From: Procambarus clarkii
Lineage: Eukaryota > Arthropoda > Malacostraca > Decapoda > Cambaridae
Assembly (NCBI RefSeq): GCF_040958095.1
Contig: NC_091160.1
Location: 34,799,385 to 34,863,384 of the forward strand
Length of the DNA: 64,000 bases
Reading direction: 5' to 3'
The notes beneath the pieces were generated by a model that searched no databases, had not been told where the DNA came from, and saw only the letters and a program-made list of their open reading frames with translations. A program made the translations under genes and the position numbers. Shown in pieces: positions 60,801 to 64,000 of this stretch. How positions within the stretch are numbered: the stretch's first letter is position 1; the number at the start of each line of letters is the position of its first letter.

Positions 60801-63800
60801 TATTATTATTTTAATTATTGTCTCTATGATGAAAATAAAGGCTTCAATATAAATAAGTACTCTATACATTTCCATAACTATTTTTACATACCAATGACAT
60901 TAATGATCCTGCCCAAGGTTGCTGGGCCAACTGGGATGGAAATTGGTCCTCCTGTATCGGTGACAGATTGTCCACGGACAAGACCTTCTGTTCCATCCAT
61001 AGCAATAGTACGCACTGTGTTTCCTCCTGTGAAGACCATAACACCTAAATGTTAAAAACTTCAGGAAACTTCACGTGATAACTTTTTGTATCTCACCTTG
61101 TATGTATGTACTTTACCTGAATAAATATTTGTATTTGTATTTGTTTCTTGAAAATATTTAATTGAACAATCACCTGCACAATCATTTAAATAATGATTTC
61201 CCAAAACCATCAGATCAGAAAGAAACGTGTTAGGCTTAGTCCCACTAGGCCAATGACTGACCTTCCCCAGGATGCAACTCTACAACAGTTGCATAACTTC
61301 TGGGTACCTATTTACTGCTAGGTGAACAGAGGCATCAAGTAAAAAGAAATGTGCCCAAATGTCTCTGTTCTGAGTAGGAATTTAACCCTGAAACTTTTCA
61401 AATGAGAACACACCATGGTGCCCACTGTGCTGCAGAATCTGATAAGGTTACCTACCTTGAGGTTACCTTGAGATTCCACCTAAGGTAAGACTGTATATAC
61501 TGTACTGATATACAGAGAATCAGTAACATTTCCTCCTCGAATTAACAAACAGATAATGAAAAACTATGCTAATGGATACAGTAATTTAAAATATTGAACG
61601 TAATTTTAATATAAACAAAATATGGCCAGATGTTACTGGATACATAATGTTTTGGCTTTCATCAGTTTTTCCTATGTTTATTTTGCAAGTTCTAGGAGAG
61701 GGAACTAGTAGTGAAACATAGGATTGAAGAAATGATGGTGTGGGAAAGAAGCCAGATTAGTGAGAATAACTGGACTGTGTCCAGAGTAATCTGACCTGAA
61801 TACAGTATTGGAGAATCCACTGTACATAGAATATCATAAATCTAACTTCTACTTCATTCATTATTTGCATACCCATCATTACTGATGGTAGGTAAACAAA
61901 TTAAAGAATTTGGAAATAATTATCACAAATTTAAGAAATGTGCATGTCATCCAAAATCATCAACTGCCAGAAATCTCAGGCAATTATTCCAAGTTTGCTA
62001 ACTATCACAAGTAGTGTAATCACATAATTACAACCTTTCCAGTGCTGCCTACCGGATGTGTGTCATGCATGCGTGCCAAATTAAAATTATATGTAAATGT
62101 CTCGACTAACAAACTCTTACTCTGTGTCAGGGCCTGTTGAGGTCACAGTAATGTTAAGTTTGCTAAAACTGTGTAGATATTGTTGGTTTATTTATGATGG
62201 TAAACTATGTAACTAATTGATCAGTGCTGAAACTTGATTGGCTCGATTAATTTTAGCTCGAATAATTTTAATTCATGAGCCCATTATGCATTTTTGTAAT
62301 TATTTCCACTACTCTTCCCGAGATGAGTATGGTGTATATTTTTCTCCAAATTTTGTTTACATTATTTCAAGATTTATGTCAAGTCAAAACCTTTAAATCA
62401 TTATGTTTAGTATACTCTACTATGCTGAATATGTACACACACTCATTTTCTCAATATTTGTGGAAAAAAAAGGATATCAGGAACTTACCAAGATGTTGAG
62501 CTACTTCCAAGACAAGGCGAGGTTGTCTATTCTGTACTTCAAGAGCATTGAGAATTGGAGGAAGGTTTCCCTTGAACAGAACATCTACTACGGCTCCAAT
62601 CACTGCCGTGACATTTCCTACTCCCAGTAATCCAACCCCTGAAAGATACAATATTAGATTATACTGCACAGATAAATATTTCACGAGATGATTACTGAAG
62701 TTTGGGTTTTAGAGAACTTAATAAAGTATTCCCTATCTTATGTAGAAATAGGAAAAGGTGTAAAACCAGTGCAAATTTACCTTCGTCACTGATTGTTGTC
62801 GATGTCAATTCACCAGAAGCTGCAGTAGATGGAACAGCTCCTACCTCAAGAGGGGCACTAGCAATTTCCATATTTATATCAGAATCTTTGGTATTTAGTT
62901 CTACTAATGTGTCAATGGGTTTTTCTGCCGTTTCAGCTAATTCTCTTACTGCCGCTTTAGTTCCAACAGCACTTTCTTGTACGGCTTCAACATTGGATTC
63001 TGGTGATGAATCTTGAATTGGCTCCACTTTAGTGGTATATGCCGGCAGAATTGATGATGCGGCTCCTTTGGCTGGTACTGCAGCTTCAACAGCTGGTTTT
63101 CCTGCTACATGTTCAGTAACTCTTTTGGGTGAAGCTTCAACAACCTGTTCCCTCACTGTTCCAATAATTGGTTTTATTGTTGCACCTTTAGATATTGTTT
63201 CTGTTGTAATTTCGCCAACTGGCTTGGCTGCCACAGCTTCAGAGGATGTCTTGGCTGTTGCAACGTCTGTGACTGTCTTCACTGCTGCAGCTTCAGGGGC
63301 TGGCTTGGCTGCAGCTGGTTTGGCTGCTGCAGCTTCAGCAGCTGGCTTGGCTGATGCAGCTTCAGCAGCTGGCTTGGCTGATGCAGCTCCAGCAGCTGGT
63401 TTGGCTGCTGAAGGAGCTGGTTTAGCCGGTTTGGCAGCTTCAACAGCTGGTTTGGTTGCTGAAACATCTGGTTTGGCTGCTTCAGCAGCTGGTTTGGCTG
63501 CTGAAGCATCTGGTTTGGCTGCTGAAGCAGCTGGTTTGGCAGCTTCAACAGCTGGTTTGGCTGCTGAAGCACCAAGTTTCACAGCTTCAGTGGATGGTTT
63601 GGTTGTCACAGGTTTAGCAACTGGTTTGGTAGCTTCAGCAGATGATTTAGCTGATGCTCCTTCAACAGCTTTAGCAGCTAGTTCGGCAGCTCCCACAGAT
63701 GGTTTGGCAGCTTCCACAGCTGGCTTGGCAGCTTCCACAGCTGGTTTGGCAGCTCCCACAGCTGGTTTGGCAGCTTCAGCAACTGGTTTAACAGCTACAG

Positions 63801-64000
63801 CAGCTGGTTTGGCAGCTTCAGCAGCTGGTTTGGGAGCGTCAGCAGCTACAGAAGCTGGCTTGGTAGCTTCAGCAGATAAAGAAGCTGGTTTGGCAGTTTC
63901 AGCAGCTACAGCAGCTGGTTTGGTAGCTTCGGCAGCTACAGAAGTTGGTTTGGCAGCTTCAGCAGATAAAGAAGCTGGTTTGGTAGCTTCAGCAGCTGAT
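48782..64000 (-). CDS. ATP synthase beta subunit with long Ala/Lys/Pro-rich N-terminal extension (partial)
   Basis: Ten visible exons join in phase. Nine encode a 472-residue F1-beta core, the catalytic subunit of mitochondrial ATP synthase. Motifs are intact: Walker A GGAGVGKT, catalytic Glu in GERTREGND, Walker [10 protein letters not shown], the [20 protein letters not shown] block, [10 protein letters not shown], and DELSEED. The first visible exon (64000-62781) adds at least 406 residues of repeats such as EAAKPAV and [10 protein letters not shown], then an acidic Ser/Thr/Glu-rich linker. It is open to the window edge, so the start is not seen. Ordinary mitochondrial beta precursors are about 520 residues, and this one is at least 878. 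The core also has replacements unusual for the family ([33 protein letters not shown]). I infer a diverged paralogue. From memory, Drosophila has a testis-biased beta-like paralogue with an N-terminal extension, so a germline-specific role is possible. Confidence 0.93.
49850..50000 (+). repeat. SINE-like module with (TTTA)n
   Basis: Same module as 47629-47760, ending 'cgcgcagcgtttcgggcagg'. It lies in the last ATP synthase intron. Confidence 0.7.
50441..50620 (-). CDS. ATP synthase beta exon: DELSEED lever
   Basis: It encodes [20 protein letters not shown] and [20 protein letters not shown]. The DELSEED loop that contacts the central shaft is intact. Confidence 0.98.
50900..51055 (-). repeat. 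SINE-like module with (TAAA)n, inverted
   Basis: Inverse of the 47629 module: 'ccgaaacgctatgcgtgcta', 'tttacaagaatgtaa' and a (TAAA)n tract at 51010-51050. It lies in an ATP synthase intron. Confidence 0.7.
51262..51474 (-). CDS. ATP synthase beta exon
   Basis: It encodes [40 protein letters not shown] and [16 protein letters not shown]. The adenine-pocket segment [12 protein letters not shown] is intact. Confidence 0.98.
52325..52430 (+). mobile_element. LINE 3' tail remnant
   Basis: It carries 'gagcgtagctctcatcctgt' and 'aactacacttaggtaatta', the terminal words of the 22370-23150 LINE. A short 'cacgagtcacgggacac' duplication precedes it. Confidence 0.6.
52571..52657. repeat. (ATT)n microsatellite
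   Basis: About 28 ATT/TTA units with interruptions. Confidence 0.95.
52788..52932 (-). CDS. ATP synthase beta exon
   Basis: It encodes [40 protein letters not shown] and KGSITSVQ, nearly invariant family sequence. Confidence 0.98.
53385..54330 (-). mobile_element. LINE ORF2 3' fragment, minus orientation
   Basis: The minus strand encodes [40 protein letters not shown] and [20 protein letters not shown], ending FFTHRVINP. This is a reverse-transcriptase C-terminal region typical of animal LINEs. Stops and a frame change upstream show decay. Confidence 0.75.
54470..54600 (+). repeat. SINE-like module fragment
   Basis: 'tatccaagaaggcacattcg', then 'cattcttgcagagccactaa' and 'gcatagcatttcac'. 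A diverged copy of the 47629 module. Confidence 0.6.
54990..55265 (+). mobile_element. LINE ORF2 3' end
   Basis: It contains the '[11 protein letters not shown]' type segment, then a frame break, then 'ggtggtggaggccaaaacca' and the tail 'ctcatcctgtaactacactt'. Same family as 22839-23030. Confidence 0.65.
55627..55682. repeat. Perfect 2 x 28-bp tandem duplication spanning a splice donor
   Basis: Two identical 28-base units, each holding on the minus strand TTGATAATATCTTTAG followed by GTGAGGCA. Confidence 0.97.
55663..55799 (-). CDS. ATP synthase beta exon: Walker B, duplicated donor
   Basis: It encodes [20 protein letters not shown] through [11 protein letters not shown]. The last 20 or so exon bases, the GTGAGG donor and some intron are repeated in tandem (55627-55682). 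Only the proximal donor keeps the frame. Use of the distal one would add a stop. Confidence 0.96.
56901..57085 (-). CDS. ATP synthase beta exon: Walker A and catalytic Glu
   Basis: It encodes [40 protein letters not shown] and ends DETSK. P-loop and catalytic Glu (GERTREG) are both present. Confidence 0.98.
58240..58665 (+). mobile_element. LINE ORF2 3' fragment, plus orientation
   Basis: [15 protein letters not shown] opens the fragment, then frame shifts, then [20 protein letters not shown]. Same family as 53385-54330 in the opposite orientation and in a neighbouring intron of the same gene. Confidence 0.72.
58970..59310 (+). repeat. LINE remnant interrupted by a (TTTA)n SINE-like module
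   Basis: 58970-59167 is an antisense-looking remnant of the same LINE (ttcagtattttaaagatctc, agtgagatcagccctgtcat). At 59169 it runs directly into a (TTTA)n tract and the SINE-like module. Confidence 0.65.
59570..59652. repeat. Short tandem repeat of 'tttacatttatagg'
   Basis: About five copies of a 14-18 bp unit. Confidence 0.85.
59788..59949 (-). CDS. ATP synthase beta exon
   Basis: It encodes [40 protein letters not shown] and APYSKGGKI. It leads into the nucleotide-binding domain. Donor GTAATT. Confidence 0.96.
60030..60320. repeat. Interspersed GC-rich repeat and pyrimidine-rich tract
   Basis: 'gtcgagcctggcctcgggcc' appears twice in tandem, 31 bp apart, followed by 'aaccaggtatcaaccagg' and a long C/T-rich tract (60160-60325). 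Open frames here reflect the C/T bias. Confidence 0.6.
60892..61026 (-). CDS. ATP synthase beta exon
   Basis: It encodes [20 protein letters not shown] and then [20 protein letters not shown]. Family members usually have GAPIRIPVG, so GGPISIPVG is a divergence. Confidence 0.96.
61225..61455 (-). repeat. tRNA-derived SINE fragment, minus orientation
   Basis: It contains 'acctatttactgctaggtga', 'acagaggcatcaagt' and the antisense B-box region 'ggaatttaaccctgaaac'. Confidence 0.6.
61955..62345 (+). mobile_element. Decayed LINE 3' UTR fragment
   Basis: It shares with 40400-40760 the words 'ccagaaatct', 'caagtttgctaactat', 'gagcccattatg' and 'ccactac..cc.agatg.gtatgg'. No intact frame. Confidence 0.6.
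62489..62638 (-). CDS. ATP synthase beta exon: beta-barrel start
   Basis: It encodes [20 protein letters not shown] and then [20 protein letters not shown]. Its phase-1 acceptor matches the extension exon. The canonical Gln-Phe-Asp after VVDV is replaced by LFK. Confidence 0.96.
62781..64000 (-). CDS. ATP synthase beta: extension exon (5' end beyond window)
   Basis: The exon is open for at least 406 codons and ends [14 protein letters not shown] before donor GTAAAT with one base carried over. The outer part (64000-63840) is built of 10-residue units like [10 protein letters not shown], followed by 7-residue units like EAAKPAV/S. The inner 140 residues are non-repetitive and richer in Glu, Ser and Thr. 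There is no membrane segment. Whether a mitochondrial presequence precedes it cannot be seen. Confidence 0.9.

Follow-up and report, generated by a model that had tools for sequence, protein, structure and literature searches.

The stretch of DNA analysed here, referred to as the window, comprises 64,000 nucleotides from the crayfish Procambarus clarkii and carries on its minus strand ten exons that join in frame to form a second gene for the beta subunit of F1-ATPase, here called the long beta gene after the N-terminal extension, or arm, that precedes its core. We placed the window at C11:34799385-34863384 of its own assembly (4.03 Gb, 2308 contigs) and fetched upstream DNA from there; positions follow the numbering of the window, also beyond its end, except on contig C48. 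The part inside the window encodes 878 residues with no internal stops (406 arm codons and a 472-residue core), all acceptors are AG and all donors GT, and the stop codon lies at 48782. A preliminary description of this DNA had proposed an exon of at least 406 codons joined in phase 1 to a complete F1-beta core, giving at least 878 residues, and both splice sites and frame prove intact. The 406 window codons stand, but the exon is larger than was described, extending 478 codons beyond the window to 65433 for a total of 2653 nt, or 884 codons and one base. The features of the gene are listed below, the boundaries of array and linker being derived from residue numbers.

62781..64000, minus strand: 3' portion of the giant exon that encodes the extension; the window holds 406 of its codons, and it continues to 65433
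63091..64000, minus strand: window part of the AAKPAAE-type array (precursor residues 192-790; the array starts outside the window)
62781..63090, minus strand: acidic non-repetitive linker before the core (residues 791-893)
62639..62780, minus strand: phase-1 intron of 142 bp that separates arm from core; in the conventional gene, too, a phase-1 intron precedes the core
62489..62638, minus strand: core exon 1, start of the beta-barrel domain, without a Met
60892..61026, minus strand: core exon 2
59788..59949, minus strand: core exon 3
56901..57085, minus strand: core exon 4, with Walker A GGAGVGKT and GERTREGND
55663..55799, minus strand: core exon 5, ending in DNIF; its flanking introns are missing from the conventional gene
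52788..52932, minus strand: core exon 6
51262..51474, minus strand: core exon 7
50441..50620, minus strand: core exon 8, with DELSEED
48782..48892, minus strand: core exon 9, including the stop codon

A 28-bp tandem duplication at 55627-55682, read by eye, copies the splice donor that follows core exon 5; splicing at the second copy would lengthen the exon by 28 nt and shift the frame.

The giant exon begins after a TAG that ends a pyrimidine-rich acceptor (TTTTTTTAG, with CAA as the first exon letters) and ends at 62781 in a GTAAAT donor of 8.9 bits, the other donors of the gene ranging from 4.9 to 12.1. Given the acceptor at 65433, it is entered in phase 0 and left in phase 1, so that its omission from a transcript would throw the core out of frame. 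Without any exon 1, giant exon and core together amount to 1356 residues, and the product does not have the conventional short precursor format of about 525 residues. The sole in-frame Met of the giant exon, at 62871, stands near its end, and because the leader behind it is acidic, a start there would give no basic presequence. The best candidate for exon 1 encodes the nine residues MLRAAPSLQ at 72262-72236 and is separated from the giant exon by 6.8 kb of intron. Its donor and its start context are fair, and the front that it yields is basic; it is one of 41 phase-0 candidates over 4 bits within 30 kb. Its similarity to the conventional presequence ranks 95th of 384, and 458 of 5000 shuffles reach the same score; since this similarity does not single it out, MLRAAPSLQ is no more than a candidate, and the precursor size of 1365 residues and 138 kDa is a prediction that depends on it. 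Provided that the candidate is correct, the first ~45 residues are basic and amphipathic, residues 1-48 holding six basic residues and one acidic, with a maximum hydrophobic moment of 0.54 over residues 3-20 (0.49 in the conventional presequence).

With exon 1 unproven, it is conceivable that the core is expressed from a transcript with some other, short first exon, the giant exon being rarely or never joined to it or belonging to a separate transcript that ends in the intron. Such an ending is available, as the unspliced giant frame reads 29 codons into the intron before a stop at 62692. The donor at 62781 is nonetheless within the range of the gene, lies only 142 bp from the first core exon at 62638 and matches it in phase, and that core exon has no Met of its own. 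A mechanical screen of 39 kb upstream for phase-1 presequence exons (donors over 5 bits, frames up to 360 nt) returned 26 candidates, none convincing. We regard separate expression of the core as improbable.

By sequence, the core itself is that of a complete beta subunit. Beta-barrel, nucleotide-binding and C-terminal domains are all present, with Pfam matches over the cut-off throughout (PF02874, E 7e-20; PF00006, E 3.1e-69; PF22919, E 2.3e-16), and all six of the F1 beta motifs examined (Walker, catalytic and DELSEED motifs, chosen from general knowledge of the enzyme) are found in the long and conventional genes alike. Between these two cores the nonsynonymous divergence (dN) is 0.09 and the synonymous divergence (dS) 2.48, the latter saturated; the long core is intact and, judged by these values, under strong purifying selection.

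The conventional beta gene that the preliminary description envisaged elsewhere in the genome was located on contig C48, in two copies that both encode the same 525-residue protein:

Contig C48, 5043026-5030549, minus strand: conventional beta copy
Contig C48, 5673339-5686311, plus strand: conventional beta copy

The two lie in inverted orientation at a distance of about 0.63 Mb. Long stretches share about 96% identity, and the coding sequences differ at 5 of 1578 nt, reflecting either a recent duplication or an assembly effect. They emerged from a search for the ATP-synthase alpha/beta family in which all 15 first-look candidates were scored and 13 matches at exon level, spread over five contigs, were obtained; from characteristic motifs, we take the match on C42 to be alpha and those on C76 and C37 to be more distant V-type relatives. 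The cDNA BP53 of Litopenaeus vannamei has a 1578-bp frame and 525 residues, the same lengths as the conventional gene (PMC2906456).

Long and conventional cores are identical at 413 of 465 residues. Both genes carry the phase-1 intron before the core, preceded by about 39 presequence residues in the conventional gene versus ~890 residues in the long one. Five introns of the core agree in position and phase; three more, after TSK, at NIFR and after TSVQ, occur in the long gene alone. These shared introns argue for duplication at the DNA level and rule out a retrocopy origin; on this evidence the long gene is an old, intron-bearing duplicate of the conventional gene. The beta chains of PDB 9b0x (presumably the brine shrimp Artemia) and 6j5i (presumably pig; the records name only the subunit) served as outside points. 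The two crayfish genes cluster against both, the alternatives receiving p 0.004 in an approximately unbiased (AU) test on four taxa, with Drosophila sequences left out and 1000 replicates, too few for this test according to the program. The preliminary description had called the gene a diverged paralogue, and this characterization is not supported: branch lengths are 0.095 (long) and 0.091 (conventional), dN is low, and the long core is no farther than its counterpart from 9b0x and 6j5i. Over 426 columns where 9b0x and 6j5i agree, 10 are changed in the long gene only, 16 in the conventional gene only, 14 identically in both and 9 differently in both. At one diagnostic site the long gene, 9b0x and 6j5i have T, and the conventional gene and shrimp BP53 have I; the simplest reading suggests a duplication older than the shrimp-crayfish split, a dating from a single site that parallel change could mimic.

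Is the arm a coding sequence? No dinucleotide shuffle of the giant exon, out of 500, reached an open run of 884 codons (maximum 241), and the non-repetitive flanks were fully open in just 2 of 2000 shuffles (182 codons) and 10 of 2000 (103 codons). The 884-codon frame is not a chance open frame. One antisense frame over the same exon has only 4 stops, so that openness inside the repeats alone proves little, and the keeping of frame is the better evidence. Frame 0 holds all 44 copies of AARCCAGCT and 72 of the 74 matches to the looser AARCCN, and the 56 AARCCAG cores are separated by 55 spacings, every one divisible by 3. Fourteen of these spacings are not multiples of 21 nt, yet their eight distinct lengths all preserve the frame, an outcome with a chance of about 1 in 6500 if lengths arose by independent, frame-blind events. 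This persistence of frame through non-unit spacings argues that the repeat array is probably translated.

Numbered on the assumption of the candidate exon 1, the arm consists of a front (residues 1-48), a basic stretch (49-166), a Ser/Asp run (167-191), the repeats (192-790) and an acidic segment (791-893). The array is rich in Ala, Lys and Pro, as had been described at the outset, with its main unit now read as AAKPAAE; the extension contains 72 KP dipeptides, and of the 71 distances from one KP to the next, 43 measure 7 residues. Overall the extension comprises 266 Ala, 104 Lys, 99 Pro, 78 Glu, 78 Ser and 69 Val. The earlier designation of the arm as basic does not apply to its window part (46 K+R versus 47 D+E), whereas the whole extension is mildly so (116 K+R versus 99 D+E), the front and array being basic and the last ~100 residues acidic. 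This composition (A, K, P, E, V and T with near-balanced charge) suits a disordered spacer. Folding of the window's 406 arm residues with AlphaFold2 without an alignment, which gave a mean predicted local distance difference test (pLDDT) score of 43, no residue at or above 70 and only short, low-confidence helices, points the same way, although for a repeat such a result says little. The 182-residue front piece matched no Pfam family, the N-terminal flank had no PDB sequence match at E up to 1, and in the genome its sole match was itself (70 of 70 candidates scored). The literature searches made retrieved no report of a beta subunit with such a giant repeat arm.

A search for sibling arrays in the genome gave at least 177 matches, from 150 scored of 113019 first-look candidates; among the matches listed, the best-scoring array outside the gene was 43% identical and none exceeded 64%, so that this scored set gives no sign of a mobile repeat family. 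We also considered whether the repeats had grown out of the ordinary presequence. The conventional presequence contains KAAKPAVAS, and a 24-nt stretch of its coding sequence matches the array at 20 of 24 positions, a score reached by none of 300 shuffles (two reach 19). The best match between protein 7-mers (6 of 7), however, was equalled by 41 of 200 shuffles, and the order of matches is not collinear; such an origin was accordingly retained as no more than a lead.

In its wealth of Lys, Ala and Pro, the arm resembles the tails of histone H1. One could imagine a role of long beta away from mitochondria, perhaps in the germ-cell nucleus, where the arm would bind chromatin in the manner of such tails, and the Drosophila paralogue ATPsyn-beta-like is reported at the centromeres during male meiosis (PMC6045659). 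The near balance of charge (116 against 99), a front that is basic and amphipathic like a mitochondrial presequence, and a core that keeps full F1 constraint all run counter to this idea and make it highly improbable.

The interpretation we favour, with a probability of roughly 40%, is that a specialised ATP synthase, built on an old and intact second beta gene, retains the arm at the F1 crown as a spacer that is disordered for the most part. The coding part upstream of the phase-1 intron, ordinarily the presequence region, would have grown into an arm of ~890 residues, made up of a presequence-like basic front, a basic stretch of ~120 residues, the Ser/Asp run, ~600 residues of AAKPAAE-type repeats and an acidic linker of ~100 residues. 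The long precursor would be imported into mitochondria, where its core would join alpha in the enzyme as a subunit capable of catalysis. Solved F1 structures place the beta N-termini at the crown, on the side far from the membrane; from there the arm would leave beta toward the matrix and stay in place as a polyampholyte spacer, largely without fixed structure. Each F1 would bear up to three such arms of ~85 kDa, which may space out adjacent heads or cristae, or tether them to one another, presumably in some specialised cell type.

A different fate may be envisaged for the same precursor, in which the arm is translated and imported but then cut off, so that ordinary mature beta enters the enzyme; the arm would then be either an oversized presequence or a by-product that goes its own way. 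In favour of removal, the arm takes the place of the ordinary presequence ahead of the shared phase-1 intron, its front is basic and amphipathic, and the mature core is conserved equally in the long and conventional genes. The keeping of frame and the layout of charge do not need cleavage, however, and we know of no presequences of this size. Removal is a possibility to be taken seriously, but on balance rather unlikely.

Several further observations weigh against a spacer function. Exon 1 is not established, and a matrix protease could remove the arm. Enlarged partner subunits were not seen among OSCP, subunit d and alpha: OSCP has one locus, subunit d one locus in three matched pieces, and alpha one locus, which we assigned by a characteristic motif. 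Among 43 heptad units the ratio of nonsynonymous to synonymous differences per site (pN/pS) is 1.22, with no purifying signal between units, although picking units by KP at spacing 7 biases the count and five other frames give 0.39 to 1.58. The region of the window is rich in minisatellites and the genome in tandem arrays, which together with this ratio implies that the arm may be tolerated, not used. On such a neutral account, a minisatellite in the presequence exon expanded in a repeat-prone genome into a functionless arm, tolerated because the N-terminus of beta lies outside the catalytic core. The many arrays in and upstream of the window, and the many low-complexity matches in the genome, fit it. 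It does not readily explain why the flanks, 182 and 103 codons free of repeats, are open as well, nor why the frame was kept through eight non-unit spacings, though for the latter only the frame need be selected, not the arm. Neutral growth seems distinctly unlikely.

Comparison with known systems lends the retained-spacer interpretation some context. The nearest precedent, the Drosophila protein ATPsyn-beta-like (CG5389), is much shorter than long beta at about 620 residues. It is a testis-specific beta paralogue, found in Diptera and Lepidoptera, that like long beta has an added N-terminal extension, and the antibody peptide used (residues 575-587) is rich in Ala, Lys, Pro and Glu (PMC6045659). 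It has a C-terminal extension as well (PMC6045659), in contrast to long beta, which ends near the conventional C-terminus and is extended at the N-terminus only. Duplicates of oxidative phosphorylation (OXPHOS) genes in Drosophila melanogaster are almost always testis-biased (PMC551531), and such testis paralogues evolve faster than their broadly expressed partners (PMC5364652), which long beta does not (0.095 versus 0.091). The same source describes Knon, an oversized testis-specific paralogue of subunit d in Drosophila, which alters the dimer-to-monomer ratio and Nebenkern structure (PMC5364652). Knon and long beta are both enlarged paralogues of ATP synthase subunits, but Knon is a peripheral-stalk subunit with a C-terminal extension and long beta a catalytic one extended at its N-terminus (PMC5364652). 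By analogy with Knon, an enlarged, tissue-specific subunit can in principle reshape mitochondria (PMC5364652), and a specialised-tissue role of long beta is plausible. An extension is also kept in the solved enzyme of PDB 6rd4, whose 574-residue beta chain matches the last exon of the long gene up to residue 501; there the extension is C-terminal, about 70 residues long and with no known repeat arm. We take this enzyme to be that of the alga Polytomella.

A bolder extension of these views, that long beta defines an ancient decapod class of ATP synthase, independent of the insect testis paralogues, in which retained arms set head spacing and inner-membrane architecture, is attractive but unlikely as matters stand. 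The most defensible statement is that this is an ancient, constrained second beta gene, the presequence-coding region of which appears to have grown into a frame-kept repeat arm of ~890 residues.

Other repeats surround the gene. Directly upstream and on the same strand, outside the window at 75437-88756, lies an open frame of 4440 codons composed largely of APATESEA-like octapeptides, a 24-bp minisatellite over ~12.5 kb. The frame has non-repetitive ends and terminates in FFQRFIRFFFRSKRPAS; the opposite strand is also largely open (1352 and 2892 codons). Within the window, an 81-bp array at 33899-36624 (~34 copies) has a plus-strand unit that can be read by eye as a Cys-rich 27-residue repeat (CPPECGIVEGIDGCDVCDCNVCLPVTD), and further tandem arrays occur at 28642-29812 (36-bp, ~32 copies) and 43518-44303 (20-bp, ~40 copies).

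The beta subunit of F1 is among the most constrained of proteins, and its precursor in animals typically has around 520 residues; the conventional decapod precursors considered here have 525 in both cases, the C48 gene and BP53. With its predicted ~1365 residues and a core of ordinary conservation, the long precursor would test how much sequence the F1 crown tolerates. It would also test whether oversized subunits of ATP synthase that shape mitochondria have arisen repeatedly, as fast-evolving proteins in insects and as a slowly evolving one here. If the duplication does predate the divergence of shrimp and crayfish, orthologues of the long beta gene would be expected in many decapods.

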